Source of the DNA: Planctomycetota bacterium
GTDB taxonomy: Bacteria; Planctomycetota; Phycisphaerae; SM23-33
DNA: 64,000 nt
Reading direction: 5' to 3'
Assembly (NCBI GenBank): GCA_029553505.1
Contig: JAKPKY010000199.1
Location: forward strand, 1 to 64,000
The notes under the pieces were generated by a model, which saw only the letters and a program-made list of their open reading frames with translations, searched no databases and was not told where the DNA came from. The translations under genes were made by a program, and so were the position numbers. Shown here piece by piece: positions 26,722-42,511 of this stretch (its first letter is position 1; each line of letters starts with the position of its first letter).

Positions 26722-27852
26722 CTAGGGTTTTTTCGCGGGGGTTTTCGGGGCGGTTTGCGGCGTATTTTGCGGAAAATTTTGGCGGGCCAGCAAGGCCTGG
26801 CACTGCTCGAGCCGGCGGCGGATCTCGGGCTGGTTGTCGTCGAGCCGGAGGCTGCGTCGCGCCGCGTCGGCCGCCGATTGGAGAAACCGCCCCTCGTCCG
26901 TCGCGCGGTATAAGTCCATGTGCAGATCGGACATGCGCGTCCAGATGGCAGCGTCCTGCGGGGCCAGCGCGGCAGCCCGCTCCAGCGCGACGGCCGCCCG
27001 CCCGTATCTGCCGGCGGCCTGCGCGGCGGCGGCCAGGTTCAGCCAGCTCGAAACGTTCCTGGGCTCCAGGCGCGCCACCTGCCCGCAGGCGTCGGCCGCG
27101 CCGGACGCATCGCCAAGGTCTGAAAGCACTTGCGCGAGCTGGCCCCAGGCGTCGGCGTTGTCCGGCTCGTCGGCCAGCAGGATTCGCCAGGCGTCTCGCG
27201 CGGCGGTGAGTTTGCCTTGCACTTGGTACAGCGCGGCCAGGTTGAATCGCGCCTGGCGGTGGGTGTCGTCCTGCTCCAAAACGGTGAGGTAAGCATTCTC
27301 GGCCTGTGGGAATCGGCCGAGGTAGACGCAGACTGTGGCGAGGTTGAATCGCGACTGCGCGTCGGTCGGCGCGAGGGCGCAGATTCGTTCGTAGGTCTCG
27401 GCCGCGTCGGCATATCGGTCGAGCTGCGAGAGGGCGGTGGCGAGGGCCTTCAGCGCGTCGAGGTTGCGTGCGTCGCGCTGGACGGCGCGGCGGAAGCAGT
27501 CGGCGGCAAGTTCGGCGCGTCCGGCGGCCAGCGCACGATTTCCCGCGGCCAGATGGGCGCGCGGGTCGGCGTCGAAGTCGTGCGCGCCCGCGACGGCCGC
27601 GGCCCGCAACCTGCGCCGAAGCTCCGGCCAGGCCGCCGGATCGGCCAGCCATCGCGCCGTCTCGCGCCGCGCCGCGCGAACGATGCGTTCCGTGCACGAC
27701 TCGCCGCGCGGCGCCGATGCCGGCTGCGTGGCCGCCTTCTCGCAGCAGGGCGGGGCGGCGGTGTCCTGCCGTCGGCAGCCGGAAGTCCCGGCCGCGCAGG
27801 CCAACAGCGCCGCCAGCGCGCAGGTTGTCACATCGCGGAGCATGGATGGCAT
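26722..27852 (-). CDS. Tetratricopeptide-repeat lipoprotein
   Basis: Lipobox-like ...AGTSGC, followed by multiple TPR units (ADCFRRAVQRDARNLDALKALA...). Confidence 0.85.
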   Translation of the reverse strand: MPSMLRDVTTCALAALLACAAGTSGCRRQDTAAPPCCEKAATQPASAPRGESCTERIVRAARRETARWLADPAAWPELRRRLRAAAVAGAHDFDADPRAHLAAGNRALAAGRAELAADCFRRAVQRDARNLDALKALATALSQLDRYADAAETYERICALAPTDAQSRFNLATVCVYLGRFPQAENAYLTVLEQDDTHRQARFNLAALYQVQGKLTAARDAWRILLADEPDNADAWGQLAQVLSDLGDASGAADACGQVARLEPRNVSSWLNLAAAAQAAGRYGRAAVALERAAALAPQDAAIWTRMSDLHMDLYRATDEGRFLQSAADAARRSLRLDDNQPEIRRRLEQCQALLARQNFPQNTPQTAPKTPAKKP

Positions 27853-28177
27853 TTTATCGGTCTCGATAGCCGGCGGGGAGAACGAATTCTTTTGTGGAAT
27901 CCATTTGTGGCTGGAGCTGTGGGGCGGCGGGAAGGCAATCTCGGCAAGGCGGACAGGTTGGGCAATTTGGTAGCCAAGACCCAAGATGTTGTGGTTTTTT
28001 GCGATGGGCGAAATTTGGATCGGCGGCATGTCCATGGAGTGGCGGAAGTTGAAACTTACTTTTTTCGTCATTTGGAGAAAAATTCTGTAGCAATTCCCAT
28101 CTGGCCCACCACAATATACCTTTTATAAAACGTAAAAATTAGTTCACGTCTTTGTGCGAATGGGTGACTGTCATTTC

Positions 28178-28810
28178 ATGAGCAACGTGGAGACATTTTC
28201 AGGCGGCGAGGAAGCCTCCGGCGATTCGTGCGACAAGGCGCGCAGCGCCGACGTTTCGCGAGGCGCCAGTGAATCGCGCGGCACGAGCGACGAGTCTCGC
28301 AATGCGAGTGAGAAGAATCGCGGCGATGACGCGTGGAATGAATCGCGCGGCGTCAGCGAATCTCACGGCGGCAGTGGCGCAGCGGGCGAATCGCGCGGGG
28401 CGCGGAATGAATCGCGCGGCGGCATTGGGCCGCGTGGCGTCAGCGAGGCGCGGGCGAGCGTGGAGTCGTTCGCTCCGGGCATCGCGCCGTCGGTGGGCGG
28501 AGGCGTGGCGCCGATCGGCGCGGGCGAAGGCGCGGCGCGGGGCGGCGGGTCGGGCCGGCGCAGGCCGCTCCCCCCCAAGCTGTACCGCATCGGCGAGGTC
28601 GTGGCGTATTCCGGCGTCAGCCGGCAGACGATCCACAACTACACGACGATGGGCCTGCTCCAGGAGTCACGTTGGACCGAAGGCGGCCATCGCCTGTACG
28701 ACGAGTCGGTCTTCGACCGTCTCGACCGGATCGGCGACCTGAAGTCGCATCACAAGTCGCTGCGCGAGATCCGCGACCATTTTGACCAATCCGACCGGCA
28801 GGACGGCTGA
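28178..28810 (+). CDS. MerR-family transcriptional regulator with low-complexity Ser/Arg/Gly N-terminal region
   Basis: LYRIGEVVAYSGVSRQTIHNYTTMGLLQESRWTEGGHRLYDESVFDRLDRI; N-terminus rich in ESRG/SRG units. Confidence 0.85.
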   Translation: MSNVETFSGGEEASGDSCDKARSADVSRGASESRGTSDESRNASEKNRGDDAWNESRGVSESHGGSGAAGESRGARNESRGGIGPRGVSEARASVESFAPGIAPSVGGGVAPIGAGEGAARGGGSGRRRPLPPKLYRIGEVVAYSGVSRQTIHNYTTMGLLQESRWTEGGHRLYDESVFDRLDRIGDLKSHHKSLREIRDHFDQSDRQDG

Positions 28811-28976: not shown

Positions 28977-30857
28977 ATGAACGCGATCCGAAGTTTCTTC
29001 CGACGGATGCGGCGGCGGTCGGCATGGATGAGCCGCCCGGTCAAGCCGGCGCTGGCGGCGGCCGCCGTGCTGCTGGTGGGCGGGGCCATCTGGCTGGCGA
29101 CGGCAGGGCCCTCGCCCCACTACGTCGCCGTCTCTCCGCGTCCGCTGGCGGCCGACGAACTCCTCGAGGCCCAATCCCTGCTCGACGCCCACGGAATCGC
29201 CTGCAAATCCGAGTCGGGCAATCTTCTCGTTCCGTCGGAGCAGCTTCCGCAGGCGCGTCTGCTGCTGGTCTACGAAGGCCTGCTGGGGCGCGACGGGGCC
29301 GACCTCTTCGCCCAGCTCGCGCAGGAAAGCGACATCTGGTCCACCGACTCCCGCCAGGCGAAGCGCTGGCAGGCGGCGAAGATGGCCTGGCTGAGCCGGG
29401 AGATCGGCAACATCGAGGGCGTGCGGAAGGCGACGGTGGTGTACGAGCCGGGCTCGCCTCGCCGCCTGGGCTCGCCGGAGGTTCCGCCGACGGCGGCCGT
29501 CAAGATCGACATGAAACCGGGCGTCAAGGTCTCCCCGCAACTGGTCGAGGCGGCGGCCGACCTGGTGGCCGGGAACATCCCCAACATGGAGCGAGGGAAG
29601 GTCTGCATCGTCGACGGCACGGGGCGGAGCTACCGGGCGGCCGAGGGCTCGCTCGCGACGGCAGGGGCCCTCGAACGCATCCGCGCCGCTGAGGCGTTCT
29701 ACGCCGAGAAGATTCGCGCGGCCCTGCCGTACATCGACAATCTGATCGTCGGCGTGAACGTCTCCGGCGGGGAGTCGCCCGCCCGCTGTACCGGCGCGTC
29801 GGTGGCGGTTCCGCGGAGCTACTTCGCGGGCGTCTGCCAGGCCGGCGGGCTCGAGCCGACCGACGAGAACGTGGAGTCGGCCATCGCCGCCCAGACGGTC
29901 AAGATCCGCCAGTCGGCGGCGAAGGTTCTCGGTGCGGCCGAGGATGACGTGAAGGTGGACTGGTACTACGACGCGGCGCCGGTGCGTGCGGCCACCGTCG
30001 CGGCGCCGGCGCCCGGCCAGGGCGTTTCGCCCGCCGGTCCGCTGGCGACGGCGGGGCTTTTTGCGGCGTTGCTGGCCGGCGCGGGGGCGTGGTGGCTGGC
30101 GCGGACGCGAAGGCGCGCCGCCCACGGCGACCCGTCCGATGCGCTGTGCCCCGAGCCGGCGCTGACGGGCCGGCCGTTCGCCTTCCTCACCCACGCCGAA
30201 CCGCAGACCCTTGCCGATGCCCTCAAGGACGAGCACCCGCAGACGGTCGCGCTGGTGCTTTCGCACCTGGAGCCGGATCTTGCGGCGGCCGTCCTGGGCC
30301 GCCTGACGCGCGAGCAGCAGGTGGACGTCGCCCGGCGGATCGCCAACCTCTCGCCCGCCGACCCGCAGACCCTGCGGGAGGTGGAGCGGGCCCTGGCGGC
30401 GCGAATGACCCGACAGGGCGCGCTGAGCGGCCCCGGCGGCGCCGAGGCCCTGGCGAAAATCCTCCAGCACGCCGGATACACCACCGAACATGCGGTGATG
30501 ACGGCGCTGTCCGACAGCGAGCCGACGCTGGCCGAGTCGGTCCGGACGAAGTTGTTCGTCTTCGAGGATCTCTCGCAGGTTCCGCCGCACCGCCTGGGGG
30601 CGGCGCTGGAGACGCTCGAGAGCGACGAGCTGGCGATCGCGCTGCGGACAGCCGGCAAGGACCTGACGCGCAAGGTGCTGGCGGCGCTGTCGAACGACGC
30701 GGCAGGGCGCGTCCGCCAGGAGATGGAACGCATCGGGCCGGTGCGCCTCAGCGACGTCGAGGCGGCCCAGCAGCGCGCGGTGGAGGCCGTCCGACGGATG
30801 GAAAACGGCGAGTACGTCTCCGTGTTGCGCGGAGAACGCAGCGAGTTGATGGCGTGA
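28977..30857 (+). CDS. FliF-FliG fusion: MS-ring protein (TM1, YscJ/FliF domains, TM2) joined in one ORF to FliG middle and C-terminal domains
   Basis: N-terminal part: TM, PRPLAADELLEAQSLLDAHGIACKSESGNLLVPSEQLPQARLLLVYEGL...; TM2 GLFAALLAGAGAWWLA; then FAFLTHAEPQTLADALKDEHPQTVALVLSHLEPDLAAAVLGRL...FVFEDLSQVPPHRLGAALETLESDELAIALRTA...GPVRLSDVEAAQQRAVEAVRRMENGEYVSV (FliG_M/FliG_C). Confidence 0.92.
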   Translation: MNAIRSFFRRMRRRSAWMSRPVKPALAAAAVLLVGGAIWLATAGPSPHYVAVSPRPLAADELLEAQSLLDAHGIACKSESGNLLVPSEQLPQARLLLVYEGLLGRDGADLFAQLAQESDIWSTDSRQAKRWQAAKMAWLSREIGNIEGVRKATVVYEPGSPRRLGSPEVPPTAAVKIDMKPGVKVSPQLVEAAADLVAGNIPNMERGKVCIVDGTGRSYRAAEGSLATAGALERIRAAEAFYAEKIRAALPYIDNLIVGVNVSGGESPARCTGASVAVPRSYFAGVCQAGGLEPTDENVESAIAAQTVKIRQSAAKVLGAAEDDVKVDWYYDAAPVRAATVAAPAPGQGVSPAGPLATAGLFAALLAGAGAWWLARTRRRAAHGDPSDALCPEPALTGRPFAFLTHAEPQTLADALKDEHPQTVALVLSHLEPDLAAAVLGRLTREQQVDVARRIANLSPADPQTLREVERALAARMTRQGALSGPGGAEALAKILQHAGYTTEHAVMTALSDSEPTLAESVRTKLFVFEDLSQVPPHRLGAALETLESDELAIALRTAGKDLTRKVLAALSNDAAGRVRQEMERIGPVRLSDVEAAQQRAVEAVRRMENGEYVSVLRGERSELMA

Positions 30858-30883
30858 AATGTGATATCGGGTGCCACAGATAT

Positions 30884-31164
30884 GGGTGCCACGGCCAAGC
30901 GCGGTTTGCTTGGCCGTGCGGAAGACACCCTCAAGCAAACGGCGCTTGAGGGTGGTACCCGAATGGATGGCGTGACGGTCTGTTGGGTGCCACGGCCAAG
31001 CGCGGTTTGCTTGGCCGTGCGGAAGACACCCTCAAGCAAACGGCGCTTGAGGGTGGCACCCGAATGGATGGCGTGACGGTCTGTTGGGTGCCACGGCCAA
31101 GCGCGGTTTGCTTGGCCGTGCGGAAGACACCTTCAAGCAAACGGCGCTTGAGGGTGGCACCCCG
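30884..31164. repeat. 101-bp tandem repeat (about 2.8 copies; starts at 30884, 30985, 31086)
   Basis: Each unit: gggtgccacggccaagcgcggtttgcttggccgtgcggaagacacc(c/t)tcaagcaaacggcgcttgagggtgg(c/t)accc + gaatggatggcgtgacggtctgtt; two hairpins per unit. Confidence 0.95.
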
Positions 31165-31197: not shown

Positions 31198-31959
31198 ATG
31201 GCAAGGGTGATCAAGGCCGGCGAGACGGGCGAGGCAGCGGCGCCCGCCCTGCGTTTCGCGGACCTGGCGGACCAGGCGCGGCGCGTCGTGCTGGACGCGC
31301 GGGCGCAGGCCGCCAGCCTCACCGACCAGGCCCGCGCCGAGGCCGAGCAGGCCCGAACCCGGGCGGCCGAAGAGGGATACGCCCAAGGCCTCGCCGCCGC
31401 CCGCCAGGAAACGCAACAGGCGACTGCGGAAGCCGCCGAATCGCTCCGCCAGGCCGTCGAGTCGGCGCGGGAACTCGTCGAGGCGCTCCAGGCCAACCGC
31501 CGGGAGCTGCTCGCCGAGGCCCGGCGCGAGATGCTCGAATTCGCCGTCGAATTGGCCGAGCGGATCGTCGGGCGCGTGGCCGGGGCCGATCTTTCCGCCG
31601 CGGCGGCCAACCTCGCCAAGGCGCTGGAGCTCTGCGGCGCGCGGACCGAGGTCGCTGCGCGGGTGAACCCCGCGCAGCTGCACGGGCTCTGGCGGCACTG
31701 CCGGGAACTGGTCGACACGCTCGGCGCGGGGCAGGTGCAACTGGTGGCGGACGAGTCGGTCTCGCCCGGCGGGGTGAAGCTGATGGTCGGCGCCGGTGAG
31801 ATCGACGCGACGATCGAGGCGCAGCTGGACGCCGTGGTGACGGCGCTGCTGGGCCCGCGCCGCGCCGAGGCGCGGGAACTTACGGGACACTACGTTTCGC
31901 ACGCGGCGCGGCAGTCAGCCGGCGCGGCGGACGCGGCGGTGGATCATGGGACTGTTTGA
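31198..31959 (+). CDS. fliH: Flagellar/type III export stator FliH-like
   Basis: Coiled-coil with AAEEGYAQGLAAARQE, C-terminal V-ATPase-E-like ...VSPGGVKLMVGAGEIDATIEAQLDAV. Confidence 0.88.
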   Translation: MARVIKAGETGEAAAPALRFADLADQARRVVLDARAQAASLTDQARAEAEQARTRAAEEGYAQGLAAARQETQQATAEAAESLRQAVESARELVEALQANRRELLAEARREMLEFAVELAERIVGRVAGADLSAAAANLAKALELCGARTEVAARVNPAQLHGLWRHCRELVDTLGAGQVQLVADESVSPGGVKLMVGAGEIDATIEAQLDAVVTALLGPRRAEARELTGHYVSHAARQSAGAADAAVDHGTV

Positions 31960-33280
31960 CGGACACAGGCAGATGCTGCGGCACGTCCAGCCGGCGCGGG
32001 TGACCGGGCGGGTCAGCGGCGTGCGCGGACTGACGGTCACGGTGTCCGACTTCCCCGCGCCCGTCGGGGCGGCCTGCCGGATCGTCCGCGGGCGGCGCGG
32101 CGTCGACGCGCGCGTCGTCGGGTTCGCCGAGGAACAGACGCTCGTGATGCCCCTCGGCGCCGTCGAGGGCGTCTGCCGGGGCGACCGCGTGCAGTGCGCC
32201 ACGGCCGAAACCTCCGTCGCCGCCGGAGACGAGATGCTCGGGCGCGTGCTCGACGGGTTCGGAAACCCCATCGACGGGCGCGGCGAGCCGCACGGCGGGC
32301 GGCGGATGGAGGTCTGGCCGGAGCCCATCGCCCCGATGCGCCGCCGGCGGATCTCCGAACGACTGCCCACCGGCGTCCGCGCGATCGACGCCTTCCTGAC
32401 CGTCGGGCGAGGCCAGCGCATGGGCGTCTTCAGCGGCTCGGGCGTCGGGAAAAGCATGCTGCTCGGAATGATCGGGCAGCACTCGCGGGCCGACGTGAAC
32501 GTGATCGCGCTCGTCGGCGAGCGCGGGCGCGAGGTGCGAGATTTCCTGGAGCGCGACCTGGGCGAGGCGGGCCTGCGGCGCTCGGTGGTGGTCGTGGCCA
32601 CCAGCGACGAACCCCCGCTGGTGCGGGTGCAGGCGGCGGCCGTCGCCACCGCCGTCGCCGAGGGCTTCCGCGACGACGGACGCGACGTCCTGCTGATGAT
32701 GGACTCCCTGACGCGCCTGGCGACCGCCCAACGGCAGATCGGCTTGGCCGCCGGAGAGCCGCCGACCAGCCGCGGATATCCGCCCAGCACCTTCAACCTC
32801 CTGCCGCGCCTGCTGGAACGCGCGGGAAGGACCGAAAGCGGCTCGATCACCGCGTTCTACAGCGTGCTCGTCGAGGGCGACGACCCCGCCGAGCCTGTCT
32901 GCGACGCGGTGCGGGCCATCGCCGACGGGCACATCTGGCTGTCACGCCCGCTGGCGCGGCGCGGGCAGTACCCGGCCGTGGACGTGCTCCAGAGCGTCAG
33001 CCGCGTGCGGAACGACGTGACCGATCCCCGCGTCCGCGCCGCCGGCGACGAACTGCGGAACCTCCTGGCCCTCTACGCCGAGGTCGAAGACCTCGTCAAC
33101 GTCGGGGCCTACAAGACCGGCGCCAACGCCGACTACGACCGCGCCATCCAGGCCGTCGGGGAAATCCGCGACCTGTTGGCCCAGCCGGTCGAGCGGGCGG
33201 CGGATTACGACGAAACCGCGGCGCGCGTGCTGGAACTGGCGGAACGATTCGGGCGCGGGCGGGAACCCCCGGTCGCGTGA
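31946..33280 (+). CDS. fliI: Flagellum-specific ATPase FliI
   Basis: GVFSGSGVGKSMLLGMI Walker A; GERGREVRDFLE; overlaps fliH. Confidence 0.95.
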   Translation: MGLFDGHRQMLRHVQPARVTGRVSGVRGLTVTVSDFPAPVGAACRIVRGRRGVDARVVGFAEEQTLVMPLGAVEGVCRGDRVQCATAETSVAAGDEMLGRVLDGFGNPIDGRGEPHGGRRMEVWPEPIAPMRRRRISERLPTGVRAIDAFLTVGRGQRMGVFSGSGVGKSMLLGMIGQHSRADVNVIALVGERGREVRDFLERDLGEAGLRRSVVVVATSDEPPLVRVQAAAVATAVAEGFRDDGRDVLLMMDSLTRLATAQRQIGLAAGEPPTSRGYPPSTFNLLPRLLERAGRTESGSITAFYSVLVEGDDPAEPVCDAVRAIADGHIWLSRPLARRGQYPAVDVLQSVSRVRNDVTDPRVRAAGDELRNLLALYAEVEDLVNVGAYKTGANADYDRAIQAVGEIRDLLAQPVERAADYDETAARVLELAERFGRGREPPVA

Positions 33281-33292
33281 GAGTGACGGCGA

Positions 33293-33763
33293 ATGGGCGA
33301 ACGCGAAGGCAAAAAGTTTCCGCTGGAAGGGCTGCTGAGGCTGCGGGCGCGGCAGGAAGACGCCGCGCGGAACGCCCTGTCGGCGTTGGCGGGCGAGCAG
33401 GCGGCCCGGCGGGAACGTATCGAGAGCCTGCGCGCGGAAGTGCAGGGAGTTTCGCAGCGCCTGCGGGAGATGCTGCTGGACGGCGACTCGGCCGGCGGCG
33501 CCGCCTGCCGAGAGCGGATTGCCGAGTTGCAGGTGACGGCAGCACGCGAGACGGCCGAGGTCGCGCGATGGGCCGGGCGGCTCGAACAGGCGCGCGAGGC
33601 CTTCGCCGAGGCGCGGGGACAGCGGCAGGCCGTCGACCTGCTGCGGCAGCGGTTCGAGGCCGCGATGGTGCTCGCCGGCGCGAAGCGCGAGCAGCGAGAG
33701 ACCGAGGAAATCGCCGGCGCGAACCACGCAGCCGCGCGGGATGAGTTGCGGGTGAACGCATGA
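33293..33763 (+). CDS. fliJ: FliJ-like coiled-coil export chaperone
   Basis: Position after fliI; coiled-coil starting KKFPLEGLLRLRARQEDAARNAL. Confidence 0.75.
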   Translation: MGEREGKKFPLEGLLRLRARQEDAARNALSALAGEQAARRERIESLRAEVQGVSQRLREMLLDGDSAGGAACRERIAELQVTAARETAEVARWAGRLEQAREAFAEARGQRQAVDLLRQRFEAAMVLAGAKREQRETEEIAGANHAAARDELRVNA

Positions 33764-34026
33764 CGGAACGAGACGGGACAATCCGAAACGGCGCGACGGG
33801 CGGGCCAATCCGCGTGCGGATCGACCTGGCCCGTGGGCGGCTGGCCGACGGGCAGGCCAGGCAGCTCGACGCCGGATGCGTCGTCGAGCTGGACACGCGA
33901 CCCGACGAGCCGGTGGAACTGTACGCCGGCGGCGAACTGCTGGCCCGCGGAGAGGCGGTCGTCGTGGACGGGAAACTCGGCGTGCGGGTGCGGCAGATCG
34001 TCGCCGGCGCGAGGCGGACGGAATGA
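33760..34026 (+). CDS. fliN: SpoA-domain protein, FliN-like (88 aa)
   Basis: VELDTRPDEPVELYAGGELLARGEAVVVDGKLGVRVRQIV: SpoA/FliN C-terminal pattern. Confidence 0.85.
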   Translation: MTERDGTIRNGATGGPIRVRIDLARGRLADGQARQLDAGCVVELDTRPDEPVELYAGGELLARGEAVVVDGKLGVRVRQIVAGARRTE

Positions 34027-34550
34027 GCGCGAAAACGAAAATCCTGGCCGCGGCGCTGCTGGCGGCGATGGCGCTGGGCGGGGCGGACACGTCCCGCGCG
34101 GACGCGCAGACCGCGCCCGCTTCCGCGCCGGCCGCGGGTCTCGAAGGGCAGACCGTCGCCCCCCCGCGGGACACGACCGGCACGGACCTCGGCGGCGGGT
34201 GGGGGCGCACGCTGGCGGCGCTGGCGATCGTCGTGGGACTGATCTTCCTGCTCCGATGGGTGCTGCGGCGGATGGGCTCGCCGGCGGCCGCGCGACGCGG
34301 GCCGATGGAGGTCATCGCGCGGACGACCGTCTCGGGCCGCCAGCAACTGCTGCTGGTCCGCCTGGGCGAGCGCCTGCTCGTGGTCGGCTCGGGCCCGGAA
34401 GGCATGACCTCCCTCGGCGAGGTGCGCGACCCGGCGGAAGTGGCGGCGCTGACGCGCTCGGCCGAAGCGGGGCGCGCGTCAGTCGTCGAGACGCTCAAGG
34501 AAAAATTCTCGCGCCGGCAGCCGTCCGGCCGCGACGAGGAAAAACCATGA
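34023..34550 (+). CDS. fliO: FliO-like flagellar biosynthesis protein
   Basis: Signal/TM then ARRGPMEVIARTTVSGRQQLLLVRLGERLLVVGSGPEGMTSLGEV; between fliN and fliP. Confidence 0.85.
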   Translation: MSAKTKILAAALLAAMALGGADTSRADAQTAPASAPAAGLEGQTVAPPRDTTGTDLGGGWGRTLAALAIVVGLIFLLRWVLRRMGSPAAARRGPMEVIARTTVSGRQQLLLVRLGERLLVVGSGPEGMTSLGEVRDPAEVAALTRSAEAGRASVVETLKEKFSRRQPSGRDEEKP

Positions 34551-35356
34551 CGCGGCGAACGATCATCATGGTAGGCACGCTGGCGGCGGTGGTCTCGCTG
34601 GCCGCCGTCGCCGCCGCTGCGCCCGCGCCGGCCTCCGCGCCGGCGAAACCCGGCGGCGCCGCCGATGCCGTCATCGCACAGATCGAGCAGTCCGCCGCAA
34701 AGACCGACGCCGCCCAGGGCGGATCGTACCTCAAGCTCATCGCCACCATCACCGTGCTGTCGGTGGCGCCGGCGATTCTGGTGATGGTCACGAGCTTCAC
34801 GCGCGTGGCCGTCGTGCTGGGCCTGCTGCGCCAGGCGCTGGCGACGCACCAGCTGCCGCCGAACCAGGTGCTGTTCGGGTTGGCGCTGCTGGTGACGGCC
34901 GTCGTGATGGCCCCGGTCTATCGCGACGTGCACGCCTCGGCCGTCGGACCGTACCTCGAAGGAAAGCTCGCCGCCGGAGACGCCGTCCGCGCCGGCGAGA
35001 AGCCCGTCCGCGAGTTCATGATCCGCCAGATCCGCGGCGGGCAGAACGAGGCCGACGTGTACCTGTTCCTCGACGAGCAGCTCGCCGCCCGCGACAAGCT
35101 CACCTGGCAGGACGTGCCCACCACGGCGCTGATCCCCGCGTTCGTCGTCAGCGAGCTGAAGATCGCGTTCCTGATGGGCTTCCGAATCTTTCTGCCGTTC
35201 CTGGTCATCGACATGCTGGTGGCGAGCGTGCTGGTGTCGATGGGCATGCTCATGCTGCCGCCGGTGCTGGTGTCGCTGCCGTTCAAGCTGCTGCTGTTCG
35301 TGCTGGCCGACGGGTGGCGCCTGGTGGTCGGCACGCTGATGACGAGCTTCGGGTAG
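34547..35356 (+). CDS. fliP: Flagellar export gate protein FliP
   Basis: MVTSFTRVAVVLGLLRQALATHQLPPNQVLFGLALL...ALIPAFVVSELKIAFLMGFRIFLPFLVIDMLVASVLVSMGMLMLPPVLVSLPFKLLLFVLADGW. Confidence 0.97.
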   Translation: MTRRTIIMVGTLAAVVSLAAVAAAAPAPASAPAKPGGAADAVIAQIEQSAAKTDAAQGGSYLKLIATITVLSVAPAILVMVTSFTRVAVVLGLLRQALATHQLPPNQVLFGLALLVTAVVMAPVYRDVHASAVGPYLEGKLAAGDAVRAGEKPVREFMIRQIRGGQNEADVYLFLDEQLAARDKLTWQDVPTTALIPAFVVSELKIAFLMGFRIFLPFLVIDMLVASVLVSMGMLMLPPVLVSLPFKLLLFVLADGWRLVVGTLMTSFG

Positions 35357-35364
35357 GGCAACGC

Positions 35365-35622
35365 ATGAACACGAGCGAAATCCTCGACTGCCTGCGGCAC
35401 GCGATGACCCTCACGCTGCTGCTCGGCGCGCCGGTGCTGCTGGCGGGGCTGCTCGTCGCGCTGGCGGTGAGCGTCTTCCAGGCCGCCACGCAGGTGCAGG
35501 AGCCGATGCTCAGCTTCGTGCCGCGAATCCTCGTCATGATGCTGGCGCTGCTGCTGACCGGGCCGTGGATGCTCGCCCGCCTGGTCGAGTTCAGCCGCGA
35601 AATGTTCGGGCAACTGCCATGA
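35365..35622 (+). CDS. fliQ: Flagellar export gate protein FliQ
   Basis: 86-aa two-TM protein, LVSVFQAATQVQEPMLSFVPRI pattern. Confidence 0.93.
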   Translation: MNTSEILDCLRHAMTLTLLLGAPVLLAGLLVALAVSVFQAATQVQEPMLSFVPRILVMMLALLLTGPWMLARLVEFSREMFGQLP

Positions 35623-35665
35623 GTTGCGAATCGCGACTCGCGACTCGCGATTTTCGGGAAACCCG

Positions 35666-36433
35666 ATGACGCACGGAATGGACAATTTAGCCTGGCTGGC
35701 GACGTTCTGGCTGGTCGTCGCGCGCGTCGGCGGGATCTTCCTGCTGACGCCGGTGTTCGCGTCGCAGGCGGTGCCGGTGAAGCTTCGCGCGGCCATGAGC
35801 GTGGCGATCGCGCTGGCCGTCGCGGGTCGCGCGGCGAGTCCGGCGGCCTGCGCCACGACCGCCCAGTTCGCCGCCGCGTGCGGCCTGGAGTTCGCCCTCG
35901 GCGCGACGATCGGGCTGGTGGCGAGGCTGGTCTTCGCGGGCGTGGAACTCGGCGCGGCACACGTCGGGCAGCAGATGGGCGTGGCGCTGGCCGACGTGAT
36001 CGACCCGTCGCTGGAGGCCTCCGGCGTGGTGCGCGGGCTGTACCTGATGCTCGCGGCCGCGGTCTTCCTGACGATCGGCGGGCACCGCCAGGTCATCGCC
36101 GCGCTGCTGCGGACGTTCGACGCGATTCCCGTCGGCGGGTTCGCGCCGGGCGCGGCGCTGACGGGCGCGGCGACGGCCGTCCTCGGCGCCGCGGTCCTGC
36201 TGGCGCTCAAGCTCGCCGCGCCGGTGCTCGTGGCGATGCTGCTGGCCACCGTCGCGATGGGACTGGTGCAGAAGACCGTCCCGCAGTGCCACCTGCTGTC
36301 GGTGGGCCTGCCGCTGCGGGCGATGCTGGGATTGCTGGTCATAGCCGTCACGGTGGCGGCGACGGCGCCGCTGCTGTCGGCGGCCGTCGAGGGCGCGATG
36401 GGGCAACTGAACGCTGCCCTGTCCGCGAGGTGA
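35666..36433 (+). CDS. fliR: Flagellar export gate protein FliR
   Basis: FWLVVARVGGIFLLTPVF...VPVKLRAAMSVAIAL; polytopic; between fliQ and flhB. Confidence 0.93.
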   Translation: MTHGMDNLAWLATFWLVVARVGGIFLLTPVFASQAVPVKLRAAMSVAIALAVAGRAASPAACATTAQFAAACGLEFALGATIGLVARLVFAGVELGAAHVGQQMGVALADVIDPSLEASGVVRGLYLMLAAAVFLTIGGHRQVIAALLRTFDAIPVGGFAPGAALTGAATAVLGAAVLLALKLAAPVLVAMLLATVAMGLVQKTVPQCHLLSVGLPLRAMLGLLVIAVTVAATAPLLSAAVEGAMGQLNAALSAR

Positions 36434-36442
36434 ACGAAACGC

Positions 36443-37243
36443 ATGGCGCGACGCGACGACATCGGCGAGCGGACCGAGCTTCCGACCGCCCTGCGCCTGG
36501 AAGAGGCGAAGCGGCGCGGGCAGGTTCCGCGCAGCGCGGACCTGGTGGCCGCCGCGACGGCGTTGGGCGCGATGGCGCTTCTGTGGGCGCTGGGCGGGGC
36601 GCTGCTGGGCGAACTGGTGCGCCTGACGGGCGCGATGCTCGACGTCTCGACCGCCGGCCAGGGCCCCCGCGCCGCCTGGGCGGGTTTGCCCGAGGCGCTC
36701 GGCCGGCTGGCGCTGCGGATCGCGCCGCTGCTGGGCGCGGCGCTGCTGCTGGCGGTGCTGGCCAACGCCGCGCAAGTAGGCCTGCGGGCGGTGGGAGAGA
36801 ACGTTTCGCCCGACCTGGGCAGGCTCTCGCCGGCAGCGGGGCTGCGGCGGATGTTCTCCGCGCGGTCGGCCTGGCGGGCAAGCCTGGCCGTCGTCAAGGT
36901 GGTCGCGGCCGGCACGCTGGCGGTCCTGGCCTTCCGCTCGGCGTTGCCCGCGCTGGCCCGCGCGGAAGCGCACGGCGCCGCGGCGCTCGCCCGCACCGCC
37001 GGCGACGCCGTCGGACGATGCGGAATCGCCATCGGGGCGGTGCTGGCCGTCCTCGGCGGGGCGGACTACCTGTTCCAGCGGTGGCAGCACGTGCAGGACC
37101 TGCGGATGACCCGGCGCGAGGTGCTGGAAGACCTCCGCCAGACCCAGGGCGACCCGGCCGTCCGCCGCCGCCGGCGCAAGCTGGCCGCCGGCGCCGTTTC
37201 CGAACTGACGCAACTGCCGCGCGAGGAGCGCGTCCATGGCTGA
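36443..37243 (+). CDS. flhB: FlhB-like export protein, truncated before the NPTH autocleavage domain
   Basis: TELPTALRLEEAKRRGQVPRSADL...DYLFQRWQHVQDLRMTRREVLEDLRQTQGDPAVRRRRRKLAAGAVSELTQLPREERVHG*; ends where the canonical FlhB enters the PxADVVxTNPTH segment. Confidence 0.92.
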   Translation: MARRDDIGERTELPTALRLEEAKRRGQVPRSADLVAAATALGAMALLWALGGALLGELVRLTGAMLDVSTAGQGPRAAWAGLPEALGRLALRIAPLLGAALLLAVLANAAQVGLRAVGENVSPDLGRLSPAAGLRRMFSARSAWRASLAVVKVVAAGTLAVLAFRSALPALARAEAHGAAALARTAGDAVGRCGIAIGAVLAVLGGADYLFQRWQHVQDLRMTRREVLEDLRQTQGDPAVRRRRRKLAAGAVSELTQLPREERVHG

Positions 37244-39308
37244 GATGCCCGACAACCTGAAATCCGCCGCCCGCTGGCTGATGCACCACCGCGGCCTGGC
37301 GCTGCCGGCGCTGGCGGCGGGCATGGTCTTCGTCGTTCTGGTCCCGCTTCCGCCGGCCATGGTGGACGTGCTGCTGGCTGGCAGCCTGGCGCTGTCTGCC
37401 GTCATCCTCCTGACGGCCATCTACATCGCCCGCCCGCTGGACTTCAGCGTGTTCCCGTCGGTGCTGCTGGGCGCGACGCTGCTGCGGCTGGTGCTGAACG
37501 TGGCGACGACGCGGCTGATCCTGACGGCCGGGGCGCAAGGCCAGACCGTCGAGCAGGCTCGCCACGCCGCCGGGCGCGTGGTCTGGGCGTTCAGCAGCTT
37601 CGTCACCTCCGGCTCGCTGACGGTGGGGGTGATCCTCTTCGCGATCCTGATCGTCGTACAGTTCATCGTCATCACGCGCGGGGCGGGGCGGATTTCCGAG
37701 GTCGCCGCCCGCTTCGTGCTCGACGCCATGCCCGGAAAGCAGATGGCCATCGACGCCGACCGAAACGCCGGGCTGATTTCCGACGCCGAGGCCCGCGACC
37801 GGCGCGAGACCATCGCCCGCGAGGCCGACTTCTACGGCGCGATGGACGGCGCCAGCAAGTTCCTCCGCGGCGATGCCGTCGCCGGGGTGCTCATCACCCT
37901 GGTCAACATCCTCGGCGGTTGCTACGTCGGCATGGTGCAGTACGGCTGGAGCTGGTCGGACACGGCCGAGTTGTTCACCCGCCTGACCATCGGCGACGGG
38001 CTGGTCACGCAGGTTCCGGCGTTCATCGTCTCGCTGTCGGCGGCGCTGCTCATCACGCGACCGACCGCGCGGACGGACCTGGGCAAGGACGTGCTCTCGC
38101 AGCTCGCCGGTCGGCCGATCGTGCTGGCGCTGGCGGCCGTGTTCCTGGCGGCGCTGGCGCTGACGAACCTGCCCACGTTGCCGCTGCTGCTTCTGGCGGC
38201 GGGGTGCGGCGTGCTGGCCTGGACGGGCCGGAAGGGCAAGGGCGACGAAGCCCCGCCCGCCGCGGCAGCCGGAAAGGCCAAGGCCGAGAGCCTTCAGGAC
38301 CTGCTGGCCGTCGATCCACTCCAGCTGGAGATCGGATACGCCCTGGTCCGCCTGGTCGACGAGAACCAGGGCGGCGACCTGACGGAGCGGATTTCCGCCC
38401 TGCGCCGCCAGATCGCCGGCGAGCTGGGATTGGTCGTCGCGCCGATCCGCATCGTGGACAACCTGCAGATCCCCGCGCACACCTACGTCATCCGCCTGCG
38501 CGGCGCGCGGGTGGCGATGGGGCGGGTGTATCCCGCGCAGATGCTCGCCATTGCCGGCGAGGGCGCGACCGAGCCGCTCGTCGGGCGGGAGACCACCGAC
38601 CCGGCCAGCGGATTGCCCGCCGTCTGGATCAGCCCCGTGCAGCGCGAGCGGGCGGAGATGCTCCACTACACGGTGGCCGACCCGGCCGGGGTGCTCATGG
38701 CGCACCTGGGCGAGGTGGTTCGCAGCCGGGCGGCCGACCTGCTCACCCGCGAGCAGGTCTCCGAGATGCTCGACGCCCTGCACGCCCGCGCCGCCCACCT
38801 GGTGGACGAAATCCGCCAGAAGTTCGCCCTCGGGCAGGTGCAGAAGGTCCTCCAGGCGCTGCTGCGGGAGCGGGTGTCGGTGCGCGACCTGGAGACGATC
38901 CTCGACGCGATCAGCGATTGCGCGGATTTGTCGAGCGACGTCGAGGCGCTGACAGCCCGGGCGCGAAGCGCCCTGTCCCGCGCGCTGAGCCAGCAGTACT
39001 GCGGGCGCGACGGAAAGCTCCGCTGCGTCAGCCTGCCGGCGCGGCTCGAGCGGACGCTCGAAGGCGCGTTCGTGTCCGACCGCCCCCGCGGCGGCGGGGA
39101 ACTGGCCCGCAAGGCGACGGTCGCGCTGGCCGAAGGACTCGGCGCGCTCCGCCGGCAGGGGCATCCGCCGGTGGTGCTGTGCTCGCCGGCGCTGCGCCCT
39201 GCGCTGCGCAAGGCCCTGTCGGCGGTGGAGCCGGCGGCGGCGGTGCTCGCCTACAACGAGATCGAAAGCACGGAAATTGAATCCGTCGAGATAGGAGTGG
39301 AAGAATGA
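37236..39308 (+). CDS. flhA: Flagellar export apparatus protein FlhA
   Basis: RPLDFSVFPSVLLGATLLRLVLNVATTRLIL, GRISEVAARFVLDAMPGKQMAIDADRNAGLI; full cytoplasmic domain. Confidence 0.97.
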   Translation: MAEMPDNLKSAARWLMHHRGLALPALAAGMVFVVLVPLPPAMVDVLLAGSLALSAVILLTAIYIARPLDFSVFPSVLLGATLLRLVLNVATTRLILTAGAQGQTVEQARHAAGRVVWAFSSFVTSGSLTVGVILFAILIVVQFIVITRGAGRISEVAARFVLDAMPGKQMAIDADRNAGLISDAEARDRRETIAREADFYGAMDGASKFLRGDAVAGVLITLVNILGGCYVGMVQYGWSWSDTAELFTRLTIGDGLVTQVPAFIVSLSAALLITRPTARTDLGKDVLSQLAGRPIVLALAAVFLAALALTNLPTLPLLLLAAGCGVLAWTGRKGKGDEAPPAAAAGKAKAESLQDLLAVDPLQLEIGYALVRLVDENQGGDLTERISALRRQIAGELGLVVAPIRIVDNLQIPAHTYVIRLRGARVAMGRVYPAQMLAIAGEGATEPLVGRETTDPASGLPAVWISPVQRERAEMLHYTVADPAGVLMAHLGEVVRSRAADLLTREQVSEMLDALHARAAHLVDEIRQKFALGQVQKVLQALLRERVSVRDLETILDAISDCADLSSDVEALTARARSALSRALSQQYCGRDGKLRCVSLPARLERTLEGAFVSDRPRGGGELARKATVALAEGLGALRRQGHPPVVLCSPALRPALRKALSAVEPAAAVLAYNEIESTEIESVEIGVEE

Positions 39309-40459
39309 ACCCCCGGACATACCAGGCGGCGTCGATGTCGGAGGCCCTGGCGGCCGTCAAACGCGAACTCGGACGCGACGCGGTGATCCTCCAGACGCGC
39401 CGGTTGCGTAAGGGCGCGCTGATGGGCCTGATCGGCGGGCGGCGGGTTTGGGAAGTCACGGCCGTGGACCACATGAACGTGCCGCCGCGCCTGCGGGGCG
39501 AATACGTGCCCGCGCCGCGCGTCGAGCCTGCGCCGGCCGAGGAGCCCGCCAAGGCGCCGCTGCCCGTCGAGACAACGCTCGGAAAACAGGTCGGAGAGAT
39601 TCACCGCCTCGTCCAGGCGCTGATGGAGCGCCAGGCGGCGGCCGACGAAAGTCCCGACGCGCTGCCCGCGCCCCTGGCGGAACTGCGCGACCTGCTGCTC
39701 GACCAGGACGTGGATGAAGACCTCGCCGAAGAAATACTCGACCACCTGCGCCGCAGCGCCGAGGGCTACGACGAACTCGACGGCGAGACGCTCCGCCAGC
39801 GCCTGGGAGACCTGGTGGCCGACCGGATCCGGGTGGCTGCCCCGGCCGGTCCGCGCGACGGACGCCGCGCGCGAGTCATCGCCCTGATCGGGCCCACCGG
39901 CGTGGGAAAAACCACCACCATCGCCAAACTCGCCGCCAACTACAAGCTCCGCGAGAACCTCTCGGTGGGACTGATCACCATCGACACCTACCGGATCGCC
40001 GCGGTCGACCAGCTTCGCACCTACAGCCAGATCATCGAGGTGCCGCTGAAGGTCGCCTCCGGCGGCGGCGAGCTGCACCAGGCCATCCACTCGTTTTCCG
40101 ACCGCGACGTGGTGCTGATCGACACGGCAGGGCGCAGCCAGAACGACAGCTCGCGCCTGGACGAACTGGCGGGGTTCCTCTCGGCGGCCGGCGCCGACGA
40201 GGTGCACCTGGTGGTCTCCGCTGCCGCCGCCAAGGCGTCCATCCGGGGCGTGATGGAGCGGTTCGGGTCGCTCGGCGCGGACCGGATTCTTCTGACAAAG
40301 CTTGACGAAGCGGGAACGTTCGGCACAATCCTCAATGTCGCACGGAGGTCGGCCCTCAGTTTTGTGACCCACGGCCAGAACGTTCCCGACGACATCGCCC
40401 CGGCCGACCCGGAGCTGCTGGCCCAGAGGATTGTGCAGGGAGGCTGCTATGTCGCATGA
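39305..40459 (+). CDS. flhF: Flagellar SRP-like GTPase FlhF
   Basis: VIALIGPTGVGKTTTIAKLAANYKL...GLITIDTYRIAAVDQLRTYSQI...VLIDTAGRSQND. Confidence 0.95.
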   Translation: MNPRTYQAASMSEALAAVKRELGRDAVILQTRRLRKGALMGLIGGRRVWEVTAVDHMNVPPRLRGEYVPAPRVEPAPAEEPAKAPLPVETTLGKQVGEIHRLVQALMERQAAADESPDALPAPLAELRDLLLDQDVDEDLAEEILDHLRRSAEGYDELDGETLRQRLGDLVADRIRVAAPAGPRDGRRARVIALIGPTGVGKTTTIAKLAANYKLRENLSVGLITIDTYRIAAVDQLRTYSQIIEVPLKVASGGGELHQAIHSFSDRDVVLIDTAGRSQNDSSRLDELAGFLSAAGADEVHLVVSAAAAKASIRGVMERFGSLGADRILLTKLDEAGTFGTILNVARRSALSFVTHGQNVPDDIAPADPELLAQRIVQGGCYVA

Positions 40460-41297
40460 CGACCAGGCGGGAAACCTCCGTCGCCTCATGAGCCAGGCGC
40501 GGCAGACGCGGACCATCGCCGTCACGTCCGGAAAAGGCGGCGTCGGCAAGTCGAACGTCTCGCTGAACCTGGCCATCCTGCTTTCGGCGGCGGGGAACCG
40601 CGTGGCGCTGGTCGATGCGGACCTGGCCCTGGCCAACCTCGACGTGCTCATGGACGCCGACGTCCGATGGAACCTCTCGCACGTCATCGCCGGCTCGCGA
40701 CGGCTCGAGGAGGTCGTCGTCAACCTGCCCAGCGGGGTGCAGTTCGTCCCCGGCGCCAGCGGGCTGGCGGGACTGGCCGACCTGTCCGAGTTCCAGCGCG
40801 CCAAGCTCCTGGACGACCTGGGCGCCCTGGAGGCCGACAACGACATCGTCATCGTCGACACCGGCGCGGGAATCGGGCCCGACGTCCTGAAGTTCGCCTC
40901 CTGCGCCGACACCGTCCTGGTCGTCACCGCCCCCGAGCCGACGGCCATCACCGACGGATACGCCCTCATCAAGGTGCTTGCCCAGCGCGACTACCGCGGA
41001 CAAATGAGCCTGCTGGTGAACTTCGCGCCCGACCGCCACGAGGCCCGCCAGACCTACCAGCGGATCTCCAATGTCGCCCGGCAGTTCCTCGACGCCCGCG
41101 TGCTCGACGCCGGATACGTCCTGCACGACCCGAAGGTCCGCGACGCCGTCCGCAAACGCGAACCGTTCGTGCTGGCGTTCCCGCGCTGCCCGGCCAGCCG
41201 GTGCGTCGCCGCCCTGGCCACCAAGCTCTGCGCCGGCGGGGTTCTGGTCGAAAGGAAAGACGGATTCTTCCGGCGGGTCGCCAACTGGTTCGCCTGA
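40449..41297 (+). CDS. flhG: MinD/ParA-like ATPase FlhG
   Basis: RTIAVTSGKGGVGKSNVSLNLAILL; overlaps flhF. Confidence 0.93.
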   Translation: MSHDDQAGNLRRLMSQARQTRTIAVTSGKGGVGKSNVSLNLAILLSAAGNRVALVDADLALANLDVLMDADVRWNLSHVIAGSRRLEEVVVNLPSGVQFVPGASGLAGLADLSEFQRAKLLDDLGALEADNDIVIVDTGAGIGPDVLKFASCADTVLVVTAPEPTAITDGYALIKVLAQRDYRGQMSLLVNFAPDRHEARQTYQRISNVARQFLDARVLDAGYVLHDPKVRDAVRKREPFVLAFPRCPASRCVAALATKLCAGGVLVERKDGFFRRVANWFA

Positions 41298-41529: not shown

Positions 41530-41716
41530 AAATCTAAATAGAATAAAGAAGATGAGCTTGGTAATCCGAATTCCAAGTGTTTCCAAGACATTGTCTCATA
41601 CGGAAAAAACAGGAAAACGAGTCCGACGACACATCATTACTCCTTAAATGGAAAGAAATTACATGTCCAGAATCCGCGGGTCGAGAATCGGAATGAAACT
41701 CAAGGAGTCTTCGACC

Positions 41717-42511
41717 ATGACAACCTCCAAGGACGCCAAGGCCCCATTGGAGCAGGTGGAGAAGTGGTGGAAGCAGTTCCACGGCACGAAGGATGAGACG
41801 GCCAGGAACTGCCTGATGGAGCATTATCTTCCGATCGTGAAATACACGGCCGAGAGGCTCCACACCAAGCTGCCCGACGAAGTGGACGTGGACGACCTGA
41901 TGTCGGCGGGCATCTTCGGGCTGATGGACGCGATCAAGGCGTTCGACCCGGCCCGGGGCGTGAAGTTTGAGACGTACTGTGCGCCGCGCATCCGCGGGGC
42001 CATCCTCGACGAGCTGCGCTCGATGGACTGGGTGCCGCGCCTCGTTCGCAGCCGGGCCCACAAGCTCAACGAGGCCATGGCTGCCCTCGAGGCCCAGCTC
42101 GGTCGCCGCCCCAACGAGAAGGAACTCGCCGCCGAAATGCGCATGAGCCTCCGCGAGTTCCACAAGCTCCAGCGCGACGCCCACGCCACCGGGCTGGTCT
42201 CGCTCAGCCGCAAGTGGTTCGAGACCGACGGAAACAAGGACGTCCGCGAGATCGACGTCCTGGAGGACAAGCGCAGCGACGATCCCTTCCGCGCCGCCCA
42301 GCGAAAGGACCTGAAGGAACTCATCACCCGCGGGCTCAGCCGGGCCGAACGCCTCATCATCATCCTCTACTACTTCGAGGAAATGACGATGAAGGAAATC
42401 GGCGAGACCCTCGACCTGTCCGAAAGCCGCGTCAGCCAGATGCACTCGTCGATCCTCGGCCGGCTCAAGCACCAGCTCGAACGCCGAAAGAAGGAACTGA
42501 ACGTCGGGTAA
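41717..42511 (+). CDS. fliA: FliA/WhiG-family RNA polymerase sigma factor
   Basis: DLMSAGIFGLMDAIKAFDPARGVKFETYCAPRIRGAILDELRSMDWVPRLVR; sigma4 LIIILYYFEEMTMKEIGETLDLSESRVSQMHSSIL. Confidence 0.93.
   Translation: MTTSKDAKAPLEQVEKWWKQFHGTKDETARNCLMEHYLPIVKYTAERLHTKLPDEVDVDDLMSAGIFGLMDAIKAFDPARGVKFETYCAPRIRGAILDELRSMDWVPRLVRSRAHKLNEAMAALEAQLGRRPNEKELAAEMRMSLREFHKLQRDAHATGLVSLSRKWFETDGNKDVREIDVLEDKRSDDPFRAAQRKDLKELITRGLSRAERLIIILYYFEEMTMKEIGETLDLSESRVSQMHSSILGRLKHQLERRKKELNVG

Follow-up and report, generated by a model that had tools for sequence, protein, structure and literature searches.

A natural FliF-FliG fusion as the probable ring scaffold of a flagellum-derived export apparatus in Phycisphaerae

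We find that a planctomycete of the class Phycisphaerae encodes FliF and FliG as one natural polypeptide, and that this fusion is not part of a flagellum. The gene lies in the window (the whole stretch of 64,000 nucleotides analysed here) within an ordered cluster of flagellar-type export genes. From the gene content of this and related loci we consider it probable that the fusion is the ring scaffold of a collarless, non-rotating export apparatus derived from a flagellum, with secretion as the part that we infer.

The fusion protein and its locus

The locus contains the following features:

26722..28071, minus strand: TPR protein with a lipoprotein-type N-terminus (Pfam TPR), divergent to the cluster
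28154..28810, plus strand: MerR-type regulator (PF13411, 1.3e-13), preceding the fusion in most relatives
28977..30857, plus strand: FliF-FliG fusion, 626 aa, an uninterrupted single ORF
30883..31162: tandem repeat of 101 bp in 2.8 near-perfect copies, containing internal inverted sequence and separating the fusion from fliH
31198..31959, plus strand: FliH (PF02108, 5e-16)
31946..33280, plus strand: FliI export ATPase (PF00006, 8e-85; TIGR01026)
33293..33763, plus strand: FliJ (PF02050, 5e-10), abutting fliN
33760..34026, plus strand: short FliN of 88 aa with a single SpoA domain (PF01052, 3e-15)
33876..34550, plus strand: FliO, ORF as listed (PF04347, 6e-12)
34547..35356, plus strand: FliP (PF00813, 3e-72)
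35314..35622, plus strand: FliQ (PF01313, 3e-27)
35624..36433, plus strand: FliR (PF01311, 5e-49)
36443..37243, plus strand: FlhB, 266 aa, stopping before the NPTH autocleavage domain (PF01312, model positions 1-237 of 335)
37236..39308, plus strand: FlhA (PF00771, 3e-226), used for the tree
39305..40459, plus strand: FlhF GTPase (TIGR03499, above cut-off)
40431..41297, plus strand: FlhG/MinD-type ATPase (TIGR01969)
41648..42511, plus strand: FliA/WhiG-family sigma factor (TIGR02479, above cut-off)

Across relatives the order MerR-FliFG-FliH-I-J-N-O-P-Q-R-FlhB-FlhA-FlhF-FlhG-sigma28 is conserved. The TPR protein, which we tentatively count as a member of the cluster, recurs as a homologue in the corresponding position at other fusion loci (L022, L024, L028, L030, L010). 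FliO probably starts downstream of the listed 33876, after fliN. The N-terminal half of the MerR-type regulator (28154-28560) is a long low-complexity stretch with repeated ESRG-like motifs.

The sequence-only reading of this DNA had proposed one uninterrupted ORF encoding a natural FliF-FliG fusion that lacks both the FliF C-terminal tail and FliG_N, and this description is borne out. The GC content by codon position of the ORF (0.74/0.52/0.90) is a strong coding composition. Along the protein follow TM1 (about aa 22-42), RBM1 (about 49-100), RBM2 (about 124-220), RBM3 without a beta-collar (about 226-330), TM2 (356-382), a linker, FliG_M (409-481) and FliG_C (510-610); TM2 corresponds to nt 30042-30122, close to the earlier estimate of about 30044-30106. 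Pfam profiles recover YscJ_FliF at 59-218 (E 1e-23) and the two FliG domains at the positions just given (2e-24 for FliG_M and 8e-29 for FliG_C), while a weak FliG_N match at 421-499 overlaps FliG_M and was rejected as cross-matching of related repeats. Alignment to the NCBIfam fliG model begins only at position 107 of 338, and the N-terminal third of FliG is therefore absent. An AlphaFold model, the check that had been suggested for the junction, contains RBM1, RBM2, RBM3, TM2, FliG_M and FliG_C, with a disordered linker at 381-397 (pLDDT <50); with a mean pLDDT of 76 and a pTM of 0.30 its domains are usable and their mutual arrangement is not. Foldseek matches the model to FliF, FliG_MC and SctJ structures. 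The window's genome (73% complete) yields a single FliG_C match and a single FliF match, in keeping with the expected loss of a standalone fliG.

Conservation in relatives, also suggested as a check, is broad: one-ORF fusions occur in 19 of the 35 species of this Phycisphaerae family (G000, G001, G003, G005, G006, G010, G011, G012, G018, G019, G020, G022, G023, G431, G432, G434, G436, G437 and G438, by our count) and in one species of another family, all genomes compared being metagenome-assembled genomes (MAGs) of limited completeness. The window shares the ORF with a sister species (96% identity), and 12 further species encode the fusion as one ORF, with overall identities of 26-42%; in our alignment of 14 fusions each is one ORF (26-96% identity to the window protein). 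These sequences exclude a base-call error at the junction, which had been named as a possible refutation, and the fusion in the window is confirmed as real. Named records of the fusion are Phycisphaerales/Phycisphaerae or Planctomycetota MAGs from different samples. The fusion of G031, from another family, has FliG_C and no recognisable FliG_M, and the distant G044 holds a further fusion.

A flagellar ancestry without a flagellum

The sequence-only reading took the fusion for a flagellar MS-ring and rotor, and here the evidence goes against it. Fusion-only genomes, six of the family's seven (G000, G001, G005, G011, G020 and G022, with G432 left out) plus G031 of the other family, contain no match to the rod/hook C-terminal domain PF06429, to flagellin or to the MotB plug PF13677, and the same searches find these genes in nearly every flagellated relative. 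Stators were scored by the MotB plug, for which this holds in nearly all of those relatives, because MotA_N (PF20560) is too insensitive in these genomes. Besides the fusion, 12 of the 19 species encode a separate flagellum from another lineage, and these dual genomes have two FlhA genes and one axial gene set (G019 was scored as dual on axial genes, flagellin, MotB and a second FlhA, its own FliF/FliG being undetected by similarity to the fusion). Since their axial and MotB gene numbers are about those of flagellum-only genomes, the fusion system brings none of its own.

The proteins themselves have lost flagellar parts. Flagellar FliFs of the class have a C-terminal tail and, within RBM3, an insert of some 85 aa, and both are absent from all 11 aligned fusions; in Salmonella FliF the insert at 271-381 is the beta-collar (PMC8270960). 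Most fusion loci (L022, L023, L024, L026, L027, L028, L074 and the window) encode a FlhB of 245-272 aa that lacks NPTH, whereas FlhB is longer yet also without NPTH in L030 and L031, and looks broken in L025; intact flagellar FlhBs measure 355-421 aa, nearly all with the NPT motif. A FlhB of 265 aa without NPTH also stands beside a normal standalone FliG at L096:16293-17090, a locus that we had considered as a distant fusion and rejected for that FliG. The charged residues of FliG that act in torque generation are established in E. coli. Flagellar FliGs of the class keep K264/R281/D288/D289 (as K, R, D or E); in the fusions K264 is mostly R, R281 and D288/D289 are lost or replaced in most, and EHPQ is mostly kept. 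Measured against flagellar hallmarks, the fusion has the FliF ring domains together with FliG_M/FliG_C, and the system falls short on rod/hook, flagellin, MotB, the FliG_C torque charges and the FlhB NPTH domain.

The origin of the apparatus shows in the flagellar locus of an order-mate, G024. Its order is FlgC, FliE, FliF, FliG, FliH, FliI, FliJ, then FliK, FlgD, FlgE, FlbD, MotA, MotB, then FliN, FliO-R, FlhB, FlhA, FlhF, FlhG and the sigma factor (FliE and FlgB were assigned by the position and sequence of their ORFs, not by Pfam). The window locus is this order minus the upstream FlgB/FlgC/FliE and minus the FliK/FlgD/FlgE/FlbD/MotA/MotB block, with FliJ abutting FliN where G024 has about 8 kb of hook and stator genes. 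FliF and FliG of G024 are only 15 nt apart, so a single deletion could fuse both. In the FlhA tree, which holds no injectisome sequence, the FlhAs of fusion loci nest on long branches beside this order's flagella; the branch uniting the fusions of f1 with G031 has support of only 83/86, and the second flagellum of the fusion family forms a separate clade (100/100). Gene order and tree show the window apparatus to be a descendant of the Phycisphaerae flagellum. The ordinary flagellum of the family (L055, L057, L058, L060-L066, L068) falls in a lineage distant from the other flagella of the class.

A proposed export apparatus and the competing explanations

The sequences show that FliF and FliG became one chain by loss of the FliF C-terminal tail and FliG_N, in a locus that retained the complete gate (FliP-Q-R, FlhB, FlhA), FliO, FliH-I-J, a short FliN, FlhF/FlhG, MerR and a sigma28-type factor. 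We propose that the RBMs would oligomerise the fusion around the FliPQR-FlhB gate in the inner membrane, and that FliG_M/C, suspended from TM2 by the short linker, would bear a reduced C-ring of FliN and, in several species, a FliM homologue, acting as a non-rotating sorting platform that supplies FlhA. With the beta-collar missing from FliF and the switch domain from FlhB, no series of rod, hook and filament would be built; the gate would probably export one putative substrate class, controlled by sigma28/MerR, with FlhF/FlhG determining the site. The 1:1 ratio of FliF to FliG, which the sequence-only reading had stressed, does follow from the covalent link, but would be a by-product of the fusion.

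The FliM candidate is a divergent homologue adjoining hflX in the window's own genome (L039:9351-10271) and in the same neighbourhood in several species (G000, G005, G006, G010, G022), with FliM-like matches in G002 and G011; only co-occurrence, itself incomplete, links it to the fusion system.

Export in Salmonella requires the C-terminal domain of FlhB, so that export in a system with a shortened FlhB is unproven, and this is the main weakness of our proposal. Several relatives also count against it, having lost FliH/FliI (L026, L030, L031), FlhF/FlhG (L026 and L030) or FliG_M (L031), and the long FlhA branches are as expected in decay. The losses of FliH/FliI and FliG_M, the long branches, the broken-looking FlhB of L025 and our failure to find the hflX-linked FliM homologue in G012, G018, G019, G023 and G031 fit a decaying remnant, in which rod, hook and motor genes went first and the rest now drifts without function. 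We regard such decay as unlikely. The cluster genes are under purifying selection: in a comparison of the two sister species the fusion has a dN/dS of 0.118 (FliF part 0.14, FliG part 0.077), FliI 0.119, FliP 0.057, FlhA 0.144 and FlhB 0.195, with higher values for FliO, FliN and FliQ (0.34-0.47), all resting on this one species pair. Values of 0.06-0.2 for most genes speak against drift, as do the many genera in which the fusion, at 26-42% identity, is still an intact single ORF and the cluster is ordered, and the unusual conservation of the sigma factor and FlhG among fusion loci.

Slightly less probable than decay is a ring scaffold that exports nothing, in which FlhF/FlhG, FliFG and FliN mark a pole or organise a membrane site and the gate is structural. 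In its favour, FlhF/FlhG are present in most fusion loci, the FlhB switch domain is missing and some members have lost the ATPase. Such a scaffold sits poorly with the export gate (FliP, FliQ, FliR, FlhB, FlhA), which persists in nearly every well-covered locus, including L026 and L030 where FlhF/FlhG are gone, and with FliP and FlhA being strongly constrained by purifying selection. ATPase-independent type III secretion is reported for Salmonella (PMC4230889), so export could continue in those members that lack the ATPase.

That the fusion is the rotor of a functional rotary flagellum, whose axial and stator genes lie on unassembled contigs, is strongly disfavoured. The window's genome is only 73% complete, which leaves room for missing contigs, but the axial and stator genes are jointly absent from 7 of 7 fusion-only genomes tested, among them G005, G011 and G031 at 91, 90 and 95% completeness, by searches that succeed in nearly all flagellated relatives; torque charges, collar and FliF tail are lost, and the dual genomes contain only one set of axial genes. 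That assembly or base-calling joined two genes is refuted: FliF and FliG are adjacent in related flagellar loci, but 19 species of the family, drawn from different samples, share the architecture, and the FliF C-tail and FliG_N are missing, not merely joined.

Relation to known systems

The window protein has a weak NCBIfam match to the type III secretion model PRK05934, which we take to be chlamydial FliF. How common natural fusions are had been left open by the sequence-only reading, and one was already described: in Chlamydiaceae FliF is naturally fused to a FliG_M fragment (Bergeron 2016, PMC4768692). As in the window, FliF is there joined after TM2 to FliG_M without FliG_N, where no flagellum is made and flagellar genes are few. 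The chlamydial protein, however, is about 330 aa long, ends within FliG_M without FliG_C, has a reduced periplasmic region and stands beside a true injectisome, whereas the window fusion has RBM1-3, FliG_M and FliG_C and accompanies a full flagellar-type export gate. The partial fusion is thus known; the larger fusion with its non-flagellar locus was not found in the literature searched (open-access, preprints excluded), and neither was any planctomycete case.

The closest system is the Phycisphaerae flagellum (G024 locus, L112/L113), which shares the gene order and holds the nearest FlhA/FliG relatives; compared with it the window system lacks rod/FliE, hook, stator and hook-length genes, the FliF C-tail and collar, FliG_N and the FlhB switch domain. 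Non-flagellar type III systems, including injectisomes and the Myxococcales type, have a flagellum-derived export core (Abby and Rocha 2012, PMC3459982). Injectisomes resemble the window locus in that homologues of the export gate and the ATPase are present and motility genes are not, but FliI, FlhA and FlhB of the window score higher with flagellar models (FlhA 735 bits, against 478 for SctV), its FlhA nests within Phycisphaerae flagella, and no separate SctJ/SctD is seen in the window locus. Engineered Salmonella FliF-FliG fusions are cited in PMC7355467 and PMC8270960, according to which one deletion type removed much of FliG_N and kept C-rings and motility; these share the covalent link but work inside a complete flagellum, whereas the window's fusion is natural and without one.

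On a broader reading, for which we see the chances as evenly balanced, this would be a second, injectisome-independent case in which a flagellum was converted to a secretion machine without motility, a change made permanent by the MS-ring/switch protein fusion and by deletion of collar, rod, hook, stator and FlhB switch; in a dozen species it would operate beside an ordinary flagellum. If true, it would be a separate case whose closest flagellar relative is still present in the same order, and would so show which parts can be dropped. The fusions would serve as natural test objects for whether the symmetries of MS-ring and C-ring need to match 1:1, for the purpose of the FliF collar and for the need for the FlhB switch domain where nothing requires switching.

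Other variants of these proteins occur further afield. L095:7321-8892, from a distant family, encodes a separate and very divergent FliF-FliG_C fusion of 523 aa, perhaps an independent fusion event. L093 and L094, considered as distant fusions, were rejected; in this other planctomycete lineage L093:9643-10299 and L094:9789-10724 each encode a standalone FliG with N and C domains and without the middle domain.
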